In this document: one piece after another, positions 24,907-35,682 of the stretch
Layout of the letters: each line of letters starts with the position of its first letter
How positions within the stretch are numbered: the first letter of the stretch is position 1
Source of the DNA: Chloroflexota bacterium
GTDB lineage: Bacteria; Chloroflexota; UBA11872; VXNJ01
Length of the DNA: 64,000 nucleotides
NCBI GenBank assembly: GCA_026707405.1
Contig: JAPOWW010000007.1
Location: 19,749 to 83,748 of the forward strand
Direction: 5' to 3'
The notes under the pieces: model-generated
Told to the model about the DNA's origin: nothing
Seen by the model: only the letters and a program-made list of their open reading frames with translations
The model's database searches: none
Program-made: the position numbers and the translations under genes

Positions 24907-24964
24907 AGCATTGGGACTTTACAATCCTCGCTGGGTCACCCCACGAAATCCAGAAAAGAGGCTA

Positions 24965-26881
24965 ATGGCAACGATTCAGGCAAGTCCCGATCTGGCCGCC
25001 GTCGACTTGCCTCGATTCACCGTCCAGCTTCCGGATATCGACTACTACCGATCCAACGTCGACTGCGCGGCTGCATGCCCCGTTCACACCGACGCGCGCG
25101 GCTATGTCACCGCCATCGAGCGCGGCGACTACGAAGAGGCGTGGTGGATAGCCAGGCAGCCGAACCCCTTCGCTTCTATATGCGGGTGGATCTGCGCGGC
25201 GCCGTGTGAGTCGGCCTGCCGGCGCGGCAGGATCGACGAGCCTATCGGCATAAGAGGGCTCAAGCGGTTCGCAAACCAAATGCACGGAGTGCTGCGGAAC
25301 CCGCTCGACCTCGGAAACGACCTCAAGACCCCGCAAAACTCAAAGACTGCGGGATCTATCTCCGCGATCCTGGAATACGCCCGCAAGTTCGCCGACGAGC
25401 GAAAGACCGGCGCCAGCGTTGCCATTGTCGGAGCCGGTCCCGCGGGACTAACCGCCGCGCACGACCTCTCGCTCATGGGGCATCGCAGCACGATATTCGA
25501 AGCGTCGTCCGCGCCCGGCGGCGCAATGTATCTGGCCGTGCCGGAACATCGCGTCGACCGGCAAATTGTGGCCGCCGAATGTCAGGCAATTCTGGAGATG
25601 CCCGGTGTCGATATTCACTACAAAACCAGGATCGGCGAGGACATCGGGCTGTCCGAGTTGCGCGCCCGCTTCGACGCGGTGGTGCTGACCACCGGACTAT
25701 GGAGGCTGGATCGACCGGCCATTCCGGGAGCGAATCTCGCTGGGGTGGTGGATACCACAAGCTTCGTCGCTGACGGCCTCATGGGAGAAAAACCGGCGGT
25801 CGGGGAACATGTCATCGTCATCGGTGACGACGATTCCGCTTTCGACGCCGCGCGCTCGGCTGTCCGCTTGCAGCTCGCGGCGGGCAAGACTATCGACGTA
25901 AAGCTATTCAGCGCCTCCACTACCAAGGCGACGCTCGGCGAGAACCAGCAGCGCGAAGCGGAGCTCGAAGGCATTTCGGTCTATACGGGCTGGGAGTTGG
26001 TGGAATGCCTCGGCAATGGCCACGCCCAATCCGTCAAGTGCAGACCGACGGTGCGCAACCCGGAAGGGATGGCTGACCTAGGTGTCGAGCGAGACCGAGT
26101 CCGCGGGACCTGGGAGGCCGAGCTGCCGGCCGATACCGTGATTCTCTCCAGCCTGCGAGGCGGAGATCTCGGCTACCTCGAAGGAATACCAGGCATCAAA
26201 GTGGATCAGGTCATCAAGGCTGACGCTTCGACCGGTAGAACCGGCGCAACCGGCCTTTACTCCGGTGGCGATGTCGTTTCCGGTCCGGCGACGATAATCG
26301 ACGCCGTCCAGGCCGGTCACGTGATCGCCCGAAGCGTGGAAGAGGACTTTCAGGAACAAAAGCTCGTTGTCAGACGCAGCGGCCGGATGACCGTGATCCC
26401 TCCCAGCGACTATCTCGTCGACGGATATCTGGACATTCCGCGGCAGACTCCTGACAGCCTGGAAACCTTCGAGCGAACGAGCGACACGCCCGTTGAGCTC
26501 GCATATGACGAGCGACAGGCGCGCACCGAAGCGGCGCGCTGCCTCAAATGCAACGTCAACACAGTATTTAGCTCCGACATGTGCATACTCTGCAATCTGT
26601 GCGTCGACGTTTGTCCCTACGATTGCCTTCAGCTGGTCGGGCTGGACAGCCTCAAAGGTCACGGGCTGGACTCGGCAGTTAAGGGGCGCTATGGTCTCGG
26701 ACTAGACTTCTTCCGTGCGAATTCCTACGACATGCAGGAAGTTGGAACCGCCCTCATGAAAGACGATGACGTTTGCACGAGATGCGGTCTTTGTGTGGAA
26801 CGCTGTCCGACCGACGTAATAACGATGGAGTGGTTCTCGTTTGACGAAAGCCTTGAGCTTGCGGGTGCGGGCGCAATCTAG
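24965..26881 (+). CDS. Fe-S flavoprotein (GltD-like with two C-terminal 4Fe-4S sites) of an unusual bc-type locus
   Basis: This 638-residue protein has an N-terminal Cys-rich region (CAAACPVHTDARGYV, then SICGWICAAPCESACRRGR) like the Fer4_20 domain of glutamate synthase small subunit. A FAD site follows (VAIVGAGPAGLTAAHDL, residues about 155-172). The second dinucleotide site is degenerate: VIVIGDDDSAFDAAR, where GGG(D/N) is usual. The C-terminus carries two [4Fe-4S] motifs, CILCNLCVDVCPYDC and CTRCGLCVERCPTDV. It would pass electrons between ferredoxin-like clusters and FAD. The degenerate second site casts doubt on NAD(P)H use. The 26-base spacing to cytochrome b indicates one operon. ATG 24965 with AGAGG upstream is preferred over 24911. 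Confidence 0.87.
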   Translation: MATIQASPDLAAVDLPRFTVQLPDIDYYRSNVDCAAACPVHTDARGYVTAIERGDYEEAWWIARQPNPFASICGWICAAPCESACRRGRIDEPIGIRGLKRFANQMHGVLRNPLDLGNDLKTPQNSKTAGSISAILEYARKFADERKTGASVAIVGAGPAGLTAAHDLSLMGHRSTIFEASSAPGGAMYLAVPEHRVDRQIVAAECQAILEMPGVDIHYKTRIGEDIGLSELRARFDAVVLTTGLWRLDRPAIPGANLAGVVDTTSFVADGLMGEKPAVGEHVIVIGDDDSAFDAARSAVRLQLAAGKTIDVKLFSASTTKATLGENQQREAELEGISVYTGWELVECLGNGHAQSVKCRPTVRNPEGMADLGVERDRVRGTWEAELPADTVILSSLRGGDLGYLEGIPGIKVDQVIKADASTGRTGATGLYSGGDVVSGPATIIDAVQAGHVIARSVEEDFQEQKLVVRRSGRMTVIPPSDYLVDGYLDIPRQTPDSLETFERTSDTPVELAYDERQARTEAARCLKCNVNTVFSSDMCILCNLCVDVCPYDCLQLVGLDSLKGHGLDSAVKGRYGLGLDFFRANSYDMQEVGTALMKDDDVCTRCGLCVERCPTDVITMEWFSFDESLELAGAGAI

Positions 26882-26907: not shown

Positions 26908-28509
26908 TTGATCGCGTTGCGTAACAGACTGCTCAGATCAATCGGGAGACCCGACGATCCGGAAGACGTGACCGGCCAGGCGCGGGCCGCCGTTGGCAAC
27001 TTCCTCCTGCAAATCCATTCGGTCAAGGTCAGCCGCAATAGCCTCACCTGGAAAAGCCCGTATGGGCTCGGGCTGATCGCCCTCTACATGTTCATAATCC
27101 ATTTCGTTTCTGGTCTTGCTCTGACGTTCTATTACGTGCCCAGCGTCGAGCGGGCCTACTTGAGCATGATCGAACTGCAGTCGGAGGTCACCTTCGGCGC
27201 GTTCATCACGAGCCTGCACAGATGGTCGGCGCACGGAATGATCATCTTCCTAGTCCTCCACATGCTTAGAGTCTTCTATACCGGCGGTTACAAGCCTCCG
27301 CGGCAGCTTAGCTGGATTATTGGAGTGCTGTTGCTGATCGTGACCGGTAAGCTGGCGTTCTCAGGCTATTTGTTGCCCTGGGACCAGCAGGCGCTCTGGT
27401 CAGTGCAAGTCGCGAGTGAGGTCATCCGATCCGGACCCATCTTCGGAGAGCATGTGCAGCGGGTCGTCTTCGGCGGACCTGACATCGGTCAGGCGACGTT
27501 GACGCGCTTCTACACCATGCACATGACGGTGCTGCCGCTACTCTCGCTGGGACTCATAGGGGCCTATATTTGGAGCCTGCGTCAGCACGGAGGCTTCGCC
27601 GCCCCCGCTGACGAAAAGCTGAACGGAGCTCAGACGGCGACCAGCCGCTACCAGACCGGGGGCGGTCTCCAGGGCGAGGGCGCATTCCCGCGAAACTCCG
27701 ACAAGACCTATGCGCTGGTGGGTTTGGTAAGAGGTTCGTCCGCCGCGGCCGGTTCCGGTCCGCGCGGCACGGTCATGGCCTGGCCTGCCGTATTCCTGCT
27801 TGAACTGGCGGTCCTGGCCGGCGTGGTACTCGTAATGGCCGCGATAAGCGCGTTCGCCCACGCGCCGCTCGGACCGCACGCCGACCCGGCGATTCCCCGG
27901 AATCCCGCCCTAATGCCGTGGTTCCTGTCAAGCATTCAGGAACTCACGCTCCACATGCATCCCGTCTTCGGCGGAATCATGATTCCCACCCTGTTTGTCA
28001 CCGGACTGTTCGCAATCCCGTTTATCGACTGGGACCGTTCCGGCTCCGGAGAATGGTTCGGCGGCAGAAGGGGAGTCATAGCCGCATTCGGGTCCGCCCT
28101 GGCGGCCGGTTTTATCTGGATAGTCCTCGAGTGGCTGGACCTGGGACGTAACCTCGCCTTCCGGTTGAAAGAGGCCCTCGACCTGACCAAGCTCACCGGC
28201 GGAGAAACGCCCAAGTCATGGCCTGAGTCATTCGGTTTCTTCGGACTCTACGATCTGACCGAATGGTCCTCGTTCCTTTGGGCCGGACTGATCCCGTTTC
28301 TCATCGTCATGACCCTGCTGCTCGTCATTGGAGCCGCCGCAAAGTTCGTGTTCGGCGGCAATCGCCGCGAGGTCATGATCTCGATATTTACGGCCACGAT
28401 CGTGTCGATAATGGTGCTGACGTTTATAGGGTCGGCGATGCGCGGGACCGACATGAATCTATATGCCCCTTGGGACCGGCCGAACATAATTGAACTTGAC
28501 AGGCAGTAG
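26908..28509 (+). CDS. Cytochrome b (b and subunit-IV parts fused), missing one heme ligand
   Basis: This 533-residue membrane protein has about 8-10 transmembrane segments and fuses the b6-like core with a subunit-IV-like part. Helix B carries H104 and H118 (spacing 14) in SLHRWSAHGMIIFLVLHML. GYLLPWDQ is present at 153-160. Helix D has H205 in RFYTMHMTVLPLL, but Ala219 and Tyr220 occupy the places of the fourth heme His. The n-side heme bH should therefore lack a ligand. The PEWY-type quinol motif reads MPWFL at 336-340, with Phe for Tyr. It would take quinol electrons. TTG 26908 is the only reasonable start. It is flanked by the flavoprotein and a Rieske-fold protein. Confidence 0.85.
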   Translation: MIALRNRLLRSIGRPDDPEDVTGQARAAVGNFLLQIHSVKVSRNSLTWKSPYGLGLIALYMFIIHFVSGLALTFYYVPSVERAYLSMIELQSEVTFGAFITSLHRWSAHGMIIFLVLHMLRVFYTGGYKPPRQLSWIIGVLLLIVTGKLAFSGYLLPWDQQALWSVQVASEVIRSGPIFGEHVQRVVFGGPDIGQATLTRFYTMHMTVLPLLSLGLIGAYIWSLRQHGGFAAPADEKLNGAQTATSRYQTGGGLQGEGAFPRNSDKTYALVGLVRGSSAAAGSGPRGTVMAWPAVFLLELAVLAGVVLVMAAISAFAHAPLGPHADPAIPRNPALMPWFLSSIQELTLHMHPVFGGIMIPTLFVTGLFAIPFIDWDRSGSGEWFGGRRGVIAAFGSALAAGFIWIVLEWLDLGRNLAFRLKEALDLTKLTGGETPKSWPESFGFFGLYDLTEWSSFLWAGLIPFLIVMTLLLVIGAAAKFVFGGNRREVMISIFTATIVSIMVLTFIGSAMRGTDMNLYAPWDRPNIIELDRQ

Positions 28510-28569: not shown

Positions 28570-29067
28570 GTGCTGAACGTCGAGCGGGCTGCTGGTACCG
28601 ATCCCATCCAGCGGAACCTCTTCCGGCTCCTGTTCGTTTCGGTAGCCGGGGTGCTGGCTCCAGTTACGATCGCCGTTGCGGCAATCGCCTTCCTCTGGAC
28701 GCCGCAGACGTCGGTAGGCAGCGTCAACGCCGGTCCGGTCGAGGACTACAACCTCCTCGATATGGTCCTGTTCGAGGAAGGCGAGTTTTACCTAACCCGG
28801 CTGCCCGACAGATTCCTAGCAATCAACCAGCGGTCCACGCACATGCGCTGCAAGGTCGCCTGGGATGCCCCATCCCGACAGTTCATAAGCCCTTGCGATG
28901 GGTCCGTATTCGACGACAAGGGAGAGGTCGTTCGCGGCCCTGCGCCCAGACCTCTCGGGACCCATGCGATCACCATCGAGAACGGCGAGCTGATTATCGA
29001 AGTCGGAGACGAAAACGTGCGCAAGCGTGACAAGTACGATCCTGGGCAGGGCGCTGAAATTGGTTAG
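28570..29067 (+). CDS. Rieske-fold protein lacking most [2Fe-2S] ligands
   Basis: This 165-residue protein has one N-terminal membrane helix (about residues 18-43) and a Rieske domain. Box I, normally CTHLGC, reads STHMRC (89-94). Box II, normally CPCHGS, reads SPCDGS (107-112). Two ligand Cys have become Ser89 and Ser107 and one ligand His is Asp110; only His91 remains. The disulfide pair Cys94 and Cys109 is kept, as is the GPAPRPLG tail, so the fold was retained under selection. The protein should not hold a normal Rieske cluster. It could be structural, a redox disulfide or a different metal site. GTG 28570 has GGAG upstream. The 60-base gap to cytochrome b and overlap with cytochrome c mark one operon. 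Confidence 0.88.
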   Translation: MLNVERAAGTDPIQRNLFRLLFVSVAGVLAPVTIAVAAIAFLWTPQTSVGSVNAGPVEDYNLLDMVLFEEGEFYLTRLPDRFLAINQRSTHMRCKVAWDAPSRQFISPCDGSVFDDKGEVVRGPAPRPLGTHAITIENGELIIEVGDENVRKRDKYDPGQGAEIG

Positions 29068-31084: not shown

Positions 31085-31312
31085 TTCACTAGCTCGCTTG
31101 TTGAGGCCGTTTCACAATGGGCATCGCCAATAATACGATTCTTGCCCGTCCCGTAAGCACCGGCGCTTAGCCGCTCATGAGGCACATGGCATCCGCCATC
31201 CGTGCTCTTGTCTGCATACGGCTCCTGAGAGTCGCAGGCTTCACCCTCCACTTCCCACGTACGATGCTATGGTGCGGCCTCGAAGCTGCATCATGCAAAC
31301 CGCGAGAAGACT

Positions 31313-32065
31313 ATGAATCTCAATGGCGCGGGAGTGCTCGTTACCGGCGCGAGCTCGGGCATCGGACTGGCGACGGCAAGAGCTCTGTTCAGCAAGGGCG
31401 CGCGGCTGGCCGTGGCCGGCCGCGACCGCCAGCGTCTGGCAGATCTGGCTGCGGAGGTCGGCGGTACGGCCATAGTCGCGGATCTCACGGCTGACGAGTC
31501 AATAACGAGGTGCGTCGACGAAGCGGCGAACCATCTCGGAGCAATCGACATTCTGGTGAACAACGCCGGAGTTGGCTGGACAGGAGCCTTCGCGCACATG
31601 CCGGCGATAGATATCGACCATCTCATCCGACTCAACCTGCGTGCCGCGATACTGCTGGCCCGTGAGCTTACGCCTCCGATGATCGCCCGCGGCCGGGGGC
31701 ACATAGTCAACGTGGCGTCGATTGCCGGCCACTTGGGTGTCGGCGGCGAAGCCGTCTATTCCGCCACCAAGGCGGCGCTCATCAACTTCAGCGAAGGCCT
31801 CCGGCAAGAAGTCGCGGACTCCGGCGTCGGGGTTGCGGTTGTCAGTCCGGGAGTGGTCGCCACAGAGTTCTTCAACCGGCACGGTTCCCCTTATTTGAGG
31901 TCATGGCCGCGCCCCATTACGCCCGAAGCGGTGGCCGATGTTATCGTCCGATCTATCGAAACCAACCGCCCGGAGGCCATAGTGCCGAAATGGCTCGGCC
32001 TCGTGGCAAGGCTCAAAGGTAGCTTGCCGGGCGTGTATCGAGCTTTGAACCGCCGGTTTGGCTAG
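31313..32065 (+). CDS. Short-chain dehydrogenase/reductase
   Basis: This 250-residue classical SDR has TGASSGIGLA (cofactor), NNAGVGW, a Ser in VASIAGH and the catalytic YSATKAAL. A C-terminal extension includes KWLGLVARLKGSLPG. The substrate is unknown. It is convergent with hpnH: its TAG stop and the hpnH stop share the bases CTAG (32062-32065). Start ATG 31313 has GAGAAG upstream. Confidence 0.9.
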   Translation: MNLNGAGVLVTGASSGIGLATARALFSKGARLAVAGRDRQRLADLAAEVGGTAIVADLTADESITRCVDEAANHLGAIDILVNNAGVGWTGAFAHMPAIDIDHLIRLNLRAAILLARELTPPMIARGRGHIVNVASIAGHLGVGGEAVYSATKAALINFSEGLRQEVADSGVGVAVVSPGVVATEFFNRHGSPYLRSWPRPITPEAVADVIVRSIETNRPEAIVPKWLGLVARLKGSLPGVYRALNRRFG

Positions 32066-33075
32066 CCGGCGATGCTCTCGAACATCGCTCTGACGGAGTG
32101 CCGAAGCGAGCTTGTCGTTTCCAGCACGGCCGTGGGTTCGTATCCGCAGTGAGCCATGCAGTTGTCGCAGCGGGGATCTCGCCCGCGACCGTATTTTTCC
32201 CAATCGGTCGTTTCGACCAGCTCCTGGTAAGTCTCGACATAGCCGTCAGCCATCAGGTAGCAGGGACGCTGCCAGCCGAAAATCGAGTAGCTGGGAATCC
32301 CCCACGCCGTGCACTGGAAGTCAATTTTCCCTTCGAGAAAATCGAGGAACAGCGGCGAGTGATTGAGCCTCCACTGGCGGCGCTTGCCGTCCGCGAACGC
32401 TTCGCTAAACAGCTTGCGCGCCTGCTCCACCGGTAGAAAGTGCTCCTGATCAGGCGCTTTCCAGTAAGCGTAGCCCGGAGAAATCATCATCGCGTCAACT
32501 TCAAGCTCATTGTTCAGGAAGTCCATCACCGCACGGACGTCTTTCACGGAGTCGTGCGTGAAGATGGTCGTGTTGGTGGTTACGCGGAATCCTTTTTCCT
32601 TCGCCATCTTGATCGCGTCCACCGCAACGTCGAATACTCCCTCCCTGTCCACCGACTGGTCGTGGCGCTCCCGGAGACCGTCAACGTGCACCGCCCACGC
32701 AAAGTAAGGCGACGGTTCGAACAGGTCTATCTTCCTCTTCATCAAGAGTGCGTTCGTGCACAGGTATACGAATTTCTTTCTCGCAATCAGCTCACGCGCT
32801 ATCAGGTGGATCTCCGGGTGAATTAGCGGTTCCCCGCCTGCGATCGAAACCATGGGAGCGCCGCTCTCCTCGATCGCCGCCACGGCAGCCTCCACGGTCA
32901 TCCGCTTCTTAAGGATTTCGACGGGATACTGGATCTTGCCGCAGCCCGTACATGCCAGATTGCAGGCGAACAAAGGCTCTAGCTCGACGATGAGCGGATA
33001 TTTTTCGCGGCCTGCTAGCTTCTGTCTGAGCAGATAGGTAGCGAGCCTCGCTGTCTGCCTTAAAGGTACGCCCAT
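32062..33075 (-). CDS. hpnH: Adenosyl-hopene transferase HpnH (radical SAM)
   Basis: This protein of about 337 residues carries the radical-SAM cluster motif ACNLACTGCGK (CxxxCxxC), SIAGGEPLIHPE and a C-terminal Cys-rich SPASM-like tail (CDNCMAHCGY). It joins 5'-deoxyadenosine to diploptene to make adenosylhopane, the first step in side-chain extension. The start MGVPLRQ at 33075 matches the usual HpnH N-terminus and has GGGAAG upstream. A longer frame to 33120 has no ribosome binding site. It ends the hopanoid operon. Confidence 0.92.
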   Translation of the reverse strand: MGVPLRQTARLATYLLRQKLAGREKYPLIVELEPLFACNLACTGCGKIQYPVEILKKRMTVEAAVAAIEESGAPMVSIAGGEPLIHPEIHLIARELIARKKFVYLCTNALLMKRKIDLFEPSPYFAWAVHVDGLRERHDQSVDREGVFDVAVDAIKMAKEKGFRVTTNTTIFTHDSVKDVRAVMDFLNNELEVDAMMISPGYAYWKAPDQEHFLPVEQARKLFSEAFADGKRRQWRLNHSPLFLDFLEGKIDFQCTAWGIPSYSIFGWQRPCYLMADGYVETYQELVETTDWEKYGRGRDPRCDNCMAHCGYEPTAVLETTSSLRHSVRAMFESIAG

Positions 33076-33171
33076 TAACTTCCCTGCAACATCAAACCAG
33101 CGGTGACTGCTCACGCTCATAGTAATGATTCAGGGCCAAACAGTCGAACCTGCCGAACTTGCTTTGATGCT

Positions 33172-33780
33172 TCAAGCCCCGACCCGATCTCGCTGGTGCA
33201 ATGCCCAATTCCTCAACGCCGGTCCTAAGCGTGTCAGTGTTCGAAGCCCCTTCACGCCGCCGCCTATTGTTTTGATAGGATCAAATAGTTCCCTGCCCGG
33301 CGTATCCACCACCACCCTCACTACGGCCAAGGGTCGACACCGTGCCGTCCGCGCAAGCCAGGCCGATTCCATGTCCACCGCCATCCCACCCGCGCGGTAC
33401 AGCGTTTTGCGCTCGCCACCCCGCACCAGGTGCTCCGACGAAACGATTAGCCCCGACCTGACCCTGATTTCATCACCCCGCAGTGCCAATACTAGGGATT
33501 CCGATTCGAGCGTCAGACAAGAGCCGTCCGGCCCCCGCACTCCGCTCGCGACGACAAGATCACCCGGTTCTAGAGACGGATCCAGCGCCCCGCAAAACCC
33601 GGCAATTACGAGAACCTTTGGATCAATTCTATCGACCATTGACAGCGCTTCTATGGATTTCTCCCTGCCAAGTCCGGTCTTGAGCACGGTAACGCCGGGA
33701 AGTCCTCGTCGCATGGCCCACGCCTCGATGGCCAGCGGCGTGAGAACCAGAAGCCCCTCCGGAACCGAGCGGCTAACCAT
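33172..33780 (-). CDS. hpnG: Hopanoid-associated nucleosidase HpnG
   Basis: This 202-residue phosphorylase/nucleosidase-fold protein has LTPLAIEAWAMRRGLPG, GFCGALDPSLEPGDLVV and the MAVDMESAWLA active-site stretch. HpnG cleaves adenine from adenosylhopane and works right after HpnH. Its place between shc and hpnH fits. It is somewhat short for the family, and the N-terminus is compact. Start ATG 33780, 21 bases after shc. Confidence 0.9.
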   Translation of the reverse strand: MVSRSVPEGLLVLTPLAIEAWAMRRGLPGVTVLKTGLGREKSIEALSMVDRIDPKVLVIAGFCGALDPSLEPGDLVVASGVRGPDGSCLTLESESLVLALRGDEIRVRSGLIVSSEHLVRGGERKTLYRAGGMAVDMESAWLARTARCRPLAVVRVVVDTPGRELFDPIKTIGGGVKGLRTLTRLGPALRNWALHQRDRVGA

Positions 33781-33801
33781 CAGCCGGCTTTCGTTGCGAT
33801 T

Positions 33802-35682
33802 TCAGCCCTGAACGCTGACGAACCGGCCAAGGGCCATCAACGGAAATACGATTCGATAGAGGTGATATTTAACGTAGAAATCGCCGGGAAAGCCTGTTCC
33901 CGTGTACCACGGTTCATCCCACCCGCCGTCCGGTCGCTGGGTCTCGATCAGAAAGCGTGCGCCGCGAGCCACCGAATAGCCCCGCTCGCCAGCCGCCAGC
34001 AGTGCTACCAGCGCCCAGGCAGTCTGGGAAGCTGTGCTATCCCCTTTACCGACCCATGAACGATCTCGATACGAACGCAGGTCCTCGCCCCAACCGCCAT
34101 CGGCGTTCTGATGCCGCTGCAGCCAGTGAACCGCGCGCCGGATCGCCGGATCCCTGGTCGGCACGTCAGCGGCCACCAAAGCCGTCACAACCGCTCCGGT
34201 GCCATAGACGTGATTGGACCCCCAGCGTCCAAACCAGGAACCGTCGGGTTCCTGCTCGCTCCTTAGCCACTCAATTCCATGTTGCGCCGCATACTCGTCC
34301 TGCCGCCCCACGGCGGCCAGCATTTCGATCGCGTGCGCGGTGACGTCGGCGCTTGGTGGGTCTACCACTGCTCCAAAATCGCAGAACGGCAGCTGGGCAG
34401 CCACGTCTCTATCGTTGTCGGCGTCGAATGCGGCCCAGCCTCCTTCGAGCGACTGCATGCCGATGGTCCATCTGATGCCCCGCTCAATTGCCGGTTCGAT
34501 CCCAAGTACGGAATCGGCACTTACTTGCTTTAGAGCCAGCACTACTTCGGCGGTATCGTCCACGTCGGGATAGTTGACGTTTGCGAACTCGAATGCCCAG
34601 CCGCCCGGTTCGAGGTCTGGCCGTTTAATCTGCCAGTCGCCGGGCACGCGCACCTCGTTCTTCACCAGCCAGTCCGCCCCTCTGTGGATCGAGCTATGGC
34701 CGCCGTCGACACCAGCGTCGGAGAGAGCGATCATAGCCAGAGCCGTATCCCATACCGGCGATTGACACGCCTCGAGCCTCCTCGCGTCACCCTCCCAGAT
34801 AGTGAAGCGGTCGATCCCTTCGAGACCCGCAGCCATAACTGGGTGGTCGAGGCCGTAGCCGCGAAGCGACAACGCGATCAACGAGTAAACCCACGGCGGC
34901 TGTATACCGCCCCACGACCCATCAGCCTCCTGCCGTCTGACTATCCATTGCTCGGCCCTCTCAAGCGCCAGTTGCCGCAACGGTCTGAGAGCACGGTTTT
35001 CGTAGAGCTGAAGACCTTGATCCAGGAGTTGAAACGCGCCGAGACCGGACGCCAAAGGCGGACGCGGCGGATCGGGCGCTCCCGAGCGAATCTCGTCCAG
35101 ATCGAACTCGATGGGGCGGACCGGGCGGTACGCCGATACTACGCTCAAGGCCACGATGGTCTGTCTGGCCCAGCACGCGAAATCGTAGATATTCAGAGGC
35201 GCCCACTTCGGCAGGAAGATCTGCTCCGGGGGCAGCACGGGCACTCGTTCCCAGGACCAGAGGCCGAACAATGCCAGCCATATGCGCGTGAACACGCGAG
35301 TGCGTTCAACGCCGCCGGCATCCAGAATGTAAGCTGCCGCCTTCTTCATGTGGTCCGCGTCGGGACTATCGCCCGCGAGCTTCAGAGCCGTATAGGCCTC
35401 GGTCGTCGTCGAGTGCTCCGGAGGTCCGCCGTAGAAGTTCGCCCACGTTCCGTCAACTCGCTGCTTCGCGCGAATCCAGTTGGCCGTCGCCTGAGTCTCA
35501 CGGCGACCGCGGATACCCAGGAACTCGCGAAGCAGCAAGTCCTCCGCCTCGATCGAGACGTTGGTTTCCAGCTCGCCCTTCCAGTAGCCGTCCGAATGCT
35601 GAAGTCCCAGGAGGTAGTCGCGAGCCCTCTCCATCGCTTCGGCGGCGGTCTGAATCAGGTTAGGGGTTGATTTGGTAATCAT
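33802..35682 (-). CDS. shc: Squalene-hopene cyclase
   Basis: This 626-residue monotopic membrane enzyme cyclises squalene to hopene/hopanol. The protonating motif DVDDTA lies at residues 373-378 (Asp373, Asp375, Asp376). Several QW repeats are visible, such as QRPDGGWDEPW and QNADGGWGED near the C-terminus. Length matches bacterial cyclases. It follows hpnE by 15 bases and precedes hpnG by 21, so the cyclase is cotranscribed with squalene synthesis and side-chain genes. Confidence 0.97.
   Translation of the reverse strand: MITKSTPNLIQTAAEAMERARDYLLGLQHSDGYWKGELETNVSIEAEDLLLREFLGIRGRRETQATANWIRAKQRVDGTWANFYGGPPEHSTTTEAYTALKLAGDSPDADHMKKAAAYILDAGGVERTRVFTRIWLALFGLWSWERVPVLPPEQIFLPKWAPLNIYDFACWARQTIVALSVVSAYRPVRPIEFDLDEIRSGAPDPPRPPLASGLGAFQLLDQGLQLYENRALRPLRQLALERAEQWIVRRQEADGSWGGIQPPWVYSLIALSLRGYGLDHPVMAAGLEGIDRFTIWEGDARRLEACQSPVWDTALAMIALSDAGVDGGHSSIHRGADWLVKNEVRVPGDWQIKRPDLEPGGWAFEFANVNYPDVDDTAEVVLALKQVSADSVLGIEPAIERGIRWTIGMQSLEGGWAAFDADNDRDVAAQLPFCDFGAVVDPPSADVTAHAIEMLAAVGRQDEYAAQHGIEWLRSEQEPDGSWFGRWGSNHVYGTGAVVTALVAADVPTRDPAIRRAVHWLQRHQNADGGWGEDLRSYRDRSWVGKGDSTASQTAWALVALLAAGERGYSVARGARFLIETQRPDGGWDEPWYTGTGFPGDFYVKYHLYRIVFPLMALGRFVSVQG

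Follow-up and report, generated by a model that had tools for sequence, protein, structure and literature searches.

The window, a stretch of 64,000 nucleotides from a Chloroflexota bacterium, belongs to contig 2 of a genome of 3.13 Mb that is 94.5% complete and whose nearest named relative is the "Chloroflexi bacterium" metagenome-assembled genome COS1_bin_21. Its forward strand carries an operon of four genes encoding, in order, a GltD-like Fe-S flavoprotein, a cytochrome b, a Rieske protein and a monoheme cytochrome c (Table 1). Genes homologous to those of cytochrome b6/subunit IV and Rieske share this operon with a c-type cytochrome, as in complexes of the bc1/b6f type. The Rieske and cytochrome c genes overlap by 41 nt, and the same overlap is present in a sister genus (G003, locus L077). 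Downstream, at 31177-35682, there is a hopanoid-like cluster, assigned by eye from the sequences, with reverse-strand genes for a radical SAM protein (32062-33120), a phosphorylase-like protein (33172-33780) and a squalene-hopene cyclase-like protein (33802-35682).

Table 1. Genes and altered sites of the Rieske/cytochrome b operon, in window numbering.
Feature	Position	Strand	Evidence
GltD/NfnB-like FAD oxidoreductase, 656 aa, putative cytoplasmic flavoprotein subunit	24911..26881	+	Pfam, NCBIfam, solved relatives, alignment
Fused cytochrome b6/subunit IV-type cytochrome b, 533 aa, TTG start	26908..28509	+	Pfam, NCBIfam, alignments, dN/dS 0.026 (helices A-D)
Tyr220 (TAT) at the position of the heme bN helix-D axial His (His202 of b6)	27565..27567	+	alignments
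Rieske subunit with degenerate cluster loops and N-terminal TM helix, 165 aa; GTG start at 28570, stop at 29067	28570..29067	+	ORF, NCBIfam, alignments, solved relatives
Gln14-Arg15 in place of the twin-arginine (Tat) motif before the TM helix	28609..28614	+	alignment
Box I STHMRC: Ser89 (TCC, 28834-28836; ligand Cys lost), His91 (CAC, 28840-28842; ligand kept), Cys94 (TGC, 28849-28851; disulfide kept)	28834..28851	+	
Box II SPCDGS: Ser107 (AGC, 28888-28890; ligand Cys lost), Cys109 (TGC, 28894-28896; disulfide kept), Asp110 (GAT, 28897-28899; ligand His lost)	28888..28905	+	
Membrane-anchored monoheme cytochrome c, 178 aa	29027..29563	+	Pfam, alignment, dN/dS 0.068

What kind of protein does the third gene encode? 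Its best solved relatives are the Rieske subunits of b6f complexes (7zxy, E 5e-11), and NCBIfam models of the cytochrome b6f iron-sulfur subunit match it with E-values of 2.7e-16 and 4.1e-16, under their curated cut-offs. The Pfam Rieske score is 16.3 bits against a cut-off of 20.3, and a PF00355 scan of the whole genome missed the gene. Judged by the matches to solved chains and subunit models, the homology is not due to chance. A preliminary description of the locus had claimed that two ligand Cys are replaced by Ser and one ligand His by Asp, while the disulfide pair and the GPAPRPL tail are intact; the open reading frame bears out each of these residues and its coordinates. The ligands of the solved b6f Rieske chains align with Ser89, His91, Ser107 and Asp110, where the canonical residues are Cys, His, Cys and His, and the set of two Cys and two His in CxH and CxxH boxes is incomplete in both species of the genus (g1) for which a genome is available. 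The Cys94/Cys109 pair and the GPAPRPL proline loop of bc/b6f Rieske proteins are both present. An AlphaFold2 model from a two-row alignment has low confidence (mean pLDDT 44, pTM 0.25). The alignments point to a Rieske fold that is probably retained and to a [2Fe-2S] cluster that is probably absent in vivo.

Have the ligands been lost in one sequence or in a lineage? G001, an independently assembled genome of the same genus, has the same degenerate loops at 93% identity, with synonymous codon differences beside them. A sequencing or assembly error was considered and is ruled out by this congener, whose residues agree while the codons around them differ synonymously; the presence of all three substitutions in G001 likewise excludes a local mutation, the case in which the earlier claim would have fallen. 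Outside the genus the substitutions are not conserved: Cys89, Cys107 and His110 are kept in all 41 other distinct Rieske homologues, including those of two genera of the same family (G002 and G003), where the same operon encodes canonical loops (CTHLGC/CPCHGS or CSHLRC/CPCHGS). With the congener altered and all others canonical, the loss of ligands is, on these alignments, derived and fixed at the level of the genus. Near-full-length Rieske matches were confined to the two g1 genomes among the 41 genomes of the class that were searched, and a scan of genome contigs with the genus alignment returned the congener as its sole match. The cytochrome b sequences of the family form one clade, within which g1 is nested. 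A third sister genus, G004 (89% completeness), gave no Rieske match and no cytochrome b of this type, so that within the family the complex is dispensable.

As the alignments of the other subunits indicate, the change goes beyond the Rieske protein to cytochrome b, its Qi side and the Tat motif, a point that the preliminary description overlooked. Of the four axial His expected for hemes bP and bN on helices B and D, three are kept in both g1 species: His104 and His205 for heme bP, and His118 for heme bN. The fourth, at position 220, is Tyr in both, whereas each of the 36 other distinct homologues has His there, with CAT or CAC codons in the sister genera. Tyr220 aligns with residue 202 of cytochrome b6 from solved complexes, the helix-D ligand of heme bN. 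Asn135, likewise present in 36/36 others, is Ser in g1, and on the Qi side Arg223 has become Ser and Asp227 has become His, both residues being near-invariant in other homologues. Residues 200-240, covering helix D and the Qi region, have no amino-acid differences between the two species. PWF replaces PEWY, the F being family-wide. In g1 a single reading frame encodes cytochrome b6 and subunit IV as a fusion, whereas G003 (L077) and G002 have a separate gene for each. At the position of the heme cN Cys (b6 Cys35) stands Gly53 (27064-27066), which is Gly throughout the family; this Cys is often present in other Chloroflexota cytochrome b sequences (WCLGG/FCLGG).

With the pair His118/Tyr220, heme bN has probably been lost or strongly altered. 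In the Rhodobacter bc1 complex, the equivalent helix-D substitution H212N is a knock-out of heme bH, and H212K restores function with His-Lys ligation of the same heme (PMC4807273). Thus, a non-His ligand does not always mean that the heme is lost.

The flavoprotein, whose solved relatives are NfnA/NfnI and the glutamate synthase small chain, carries a Fer4_20 [4Fe-4S] domain at its N-terminus and a 2x[4Fe-4S] ferredoxin domain at its C-terminus. The FAD motif and the Fe-S cysteines are intact. The second Rossmann motif, for NAD(P), reads GDDDSA in place of GGGxxA, and g1 has no intact GxGxxA/G motif there. The sister genera have GGAQDA and GGCNRS at this position, which indicates that erosion of the NAD(P) motif began before g1. 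The alteration is family-wide (GDD, GGA, GGC), as against the canonical GGG of G101 and G368, where the motif is GGGYTA (loci L036, L037, L148 and L149). This suggests that the electron donor may have changed before the Rieske ligands were lost. The flavoprotein of G002 also has a deletion in the region of the second FAD motif. The cytochrome c, at the other end of the operon, keeps its single CxxCH motif (CIACH) and the distal Met.

How does a Rieske protein of this kind reach the P-side? The Gln-Arg pair before the transmembrane helix is found in both g1 species, whereas the twin arginine is kept in 23/23 other aligned homologues. The Kyte-Doolittle hydrophobicity of the helix is 2.42 and 2.25 in the two g1 species and 1.41-2.27 in the others, which places one g1 species highest and the other near the top. 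In Streptomyces, the twin arginines and a weakly hydrophobic transmembrane helix allow Sec to hand over the Rieske protein to Tat (PMC5449189). The two g1 changes thus fit the export of a protein that would need no folding around a cluster beforehand. A cluster-less yeast Rieske protein is still translocated and inserted, with lower efficiency, according to the passage in PMC12219900 that cites Graham and Trumpower 1991. TatC is encoded in the same genome, and the Gln-Arg pair could retain a weak Tat function.

The selection acting on the operon was estimated from one pair of g1 species (n = 2 genomes), and hence describes one branch. All four reading frames are intact in both species at dS 0.34-0.50, with dN/dS of 0.03-0.16 in every subunit. 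The Rieske domain has 3 non-synonymous as against 23 synonymous changes (dN/dS 0.030), and the transmembrane segment is freer (0.16); the whole gene has 0.084. In cytochrome b, residues 91-240 are identical between the species; the ratio for the cytochrome c (Table 1) and that for the flavoprotein (0.131) were likewise obtained against the congener. The adjoining lysA-like gene, in the same gene order in both g1 assemblies, has a dN/dS of 0.074, so the constraint on the operon is that of an ordinary gene. A pseudogene is ruled out by the intact reading frames in two species and the low dN/dS. The earlier proposal of a selective loss in a gene that is no pseudogene holds up, given the congener with the same loops, the intact frame and the constraint on the domain. 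It could be that selection acts on a single subunit rather than on the complex as such.

Which other enzymes of the genome could carry electrons from quinol to cytochrome c? It encodes an alternative complex III (ACIII) cluster with ActA/B/C/D/F-like proteins: a multiheme cytochrome c, a molybdopterin-like ActB, a ferredoxin-like subunit, two NrfD-like membrane proteins (one of the two above the Pfam threshold) and ActD (PF11821). The cluster lies directly ahead of succinate dehydrogenase-like genes, and an IS30-like transposase gene, identified by eye, follows just downstream of both (L141, 13723-14736). ActB is present in 5/5 genomes of the family, including G001. A heme-copper oxidase (COX1/COX2-cyt c, with a cytochrome c-fused subunit II) is encoded on contig 18. 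With ACIII and this oxidase in the same genome, quinol:cytochrome c activity need not depend on the g1 Rieske/cytochrome b complex. A second, complete Rieske protein as a substitute was also considered and rejected: the four PF00355 hits in the genome (a 139-aa ferredoxin-like protein, two oxygenase-like proteins and a 669-aa ORF) have ferredoxin-like or oxygenase-type sequence contexts, and none adjoins a second cytochrome b because a single one of this type was found in the genome.

The defining reaction of Rieske/cytochrome b complexes is bifurcation, in which the electrons of quinol part, one branch leading to the Rieske cluster and the other to heme b. In g1, ligands have been lost on both branches, from the cluster as the high-potential acceptor and from heme bN as the low-potential exit, so bifurcation should be impossible. 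The explanation preferred here, to which a probability of about 0.6 is given, is a conserved, non-bifurcating complex with the apo-Rieske protein as a structural subunit; on this reading, an enzyme of energy conversion seems to have been retained for a task other than its usual one. Selection would have retained a four-subunit complex with a cytoplasmic Fe-S flavoprotein after the means for quinol bifurcation were lost. The apo-Rieske protein would carry no electrons; its transmembrane helix and head may keep the cytochrome b dimer together, close over the quinone pocket on the P-side and provide a seat for the cytochrome c. The loss or alteration of heme bN would also impair the Q-cycle route to the N-side, and ACIII with the heme-copper oxidase could take over the quinol:cytochrome c duty. 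Any electron flow left to the complex would be linear rather than bifurcated, with FAD and Fe-S centres on the N-side and heme bP and the cytochrome c on the P-side. The full combination, in which bifurcation has been given up, the apo-Rieske is structural, heme bN has His/Tyr ligation and electrons follow a linear path between the cytoplasmic Fe-S flavoprotein and the periplasmic cytochrome c, is rather unlikely to be correct in all its parts.

It is possible, if doubtful, that the complex acts as a linear conduit for electrons across the membrane, in the manner of NADPH-oxidase-like flavocytochromes: heme bN would be retained, either with His/Tyr ligands or five-coordinate, and electrons would pass in a single line between the FAD and Fe-S centres on the N-side, hemes bN and bP, and the P-side cytochrome c. 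This is a more specific form of the preferred explanation and not exclusive of it, so the two weights overlap; all weights given here are matters of judgement. In favour of a conduit, g1 keeps the FAD motif, all Fe-S cysteines, the bP ligands, His118 and the c-heme site, and the helix D/Qi stretch is unchanged between the species. The working His-Lys ligation in bc1 offers a precedent for a non-His ligand, and in models of anammox complexes the distance between heme bP and the c hemes is 26-28 Å, shorter than in b6f (PMC12954380). However, the eroded NAD(P) motif casts doubt on the cytoplasmic donor, and no example of a Tyr ligand in a membrane cytochrome b was found in the open-access papers searched. 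A degenerating relic, in which a complex redundant with ACIII has taken its first steps of decay in the loss of ligands, is decidedly improbable. ACIII in all five family genomes, the absence of the complex from G004, the family-wide erosion of the NAD(P) motif and the deletion in the G002 flavoprotein would agree with decay, and the three Rieske changes and H220Y can each be explained by single-base changes from sister-genus codons. Yet decay would not strike ligands selectively and leave the rest of the domain unchanged; the four intact frames, with low dN/dS in every subunit at the divergence of the two species, and the conserved 41-nt overlap also argue against it.

Could Ser89, His91, Ser107 and Asp110 in the head of the Rieske protein instead bind another metal centre, or a [2Fe-2S] cluster with oxygen ligands? 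His91 and Asp110 are conserved in both g1 species, and engineered ferredoxins with O-ligated clusters are known. In bc1 Rieske proteins, however, mutation of a single ligand abolishes the cluster, and here three ligands have changed, two of them from Cys to Ser; the loss of the Tat motif also suggests that nothing is inserted before export. Such a centre is very unlikely. The chance that the whole observation stems from an artefact of assembly, contamination or sequencing is close to negligible: both g1 genomes appear to be metagenome assemblies, but they are independent and agree in residues and in gene order up to the lysA-like gene while differing in synonymous codons.

The preferred explanation, a scaffold conserved without bifurcation, concerns one lineage in which both branches of bifurcation are affected, through the cluster ligands and the bN axial ligand, and the proteins are still under selection. 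If confirmed, it would represent a scaffold naturally separated from its defining chemistry. It would also provide natural tests of what an apo-Rieske protein contributes to the complex, of whether Tyr can serve as a ligand to heme b in a membrane protein, and of whether dependence on Tat drops once cluster insertion ceases.

The closest parallel in gene content is found in the NAD(P)-oxidoreductase Rieske/cytochrome b complexes of the anammox bacterium Kuenenia (Kuste4569-4574 and Kustd1480-1485), whose operons resemble that of g1 in their make-up. Both encode a cytoplasmic FAD/4Fe-4S NAD(P)-oxidoreductase-like subunit, a b6-type cytochrome b with subunit IV, a Rieske protein and a c-type cytochrome. 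The gene for the FAD/4Fe-4S subunit accompanies those for cytochrome b and Rieske in g1 (24911-26881), G002 and G003, and the arrangement is similar in G101 and G368. These last two represent anammox-like operons with canonical ligands (L148 and L149) that occur in other Chloroflexota families, including in genomes of ~1.1 Mb. The Kuenenia complexes have been proposed to bifurcate electrons from menaquinol and so form NAD(P)H (PMC12954380). In contrast to Kuenenia, where the Rieske clusters lie above +300 mV, the g1 Rieske protein is without three of its ligands, Tyr takes the place of the bN axial His, there is no cysteine for heme cN and the NAD(P) motif has eroded. The g1 cytochrome c is monoheme, whereas the Kuenenia c subunits are hexa- or octaheme.

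The b6f and bc1 complexes share with g1 the cytochrome b6/subunit IV, the N-terminal transmembrane helix of the Rieske protein, its disulfide and the GPAPRPL loop; g1 differs in its incomplete [2Fe-2S] ligands, one missing bN axial His, PWF for PEWY and an extra flavoprotein. No earlier account of a cluster-less Rieske protein in a cytochrome b complex was found in the open-access papers searched. Rieske-fold domains without a cluster are known from the NirD type, NirD being a soluble cytoplasmic subunit of assimilatory nitrite reductase, and like the g1 protein they are Rieske homologues that have lost their ligands and presumably kept the fold. Unlike NirD, the g1 protein is anchored in the membrane and encoded in an operon with a cytochrome b; it still has the disulfide and one of the ligand His, and the sister genera have canonical orthologues of it.
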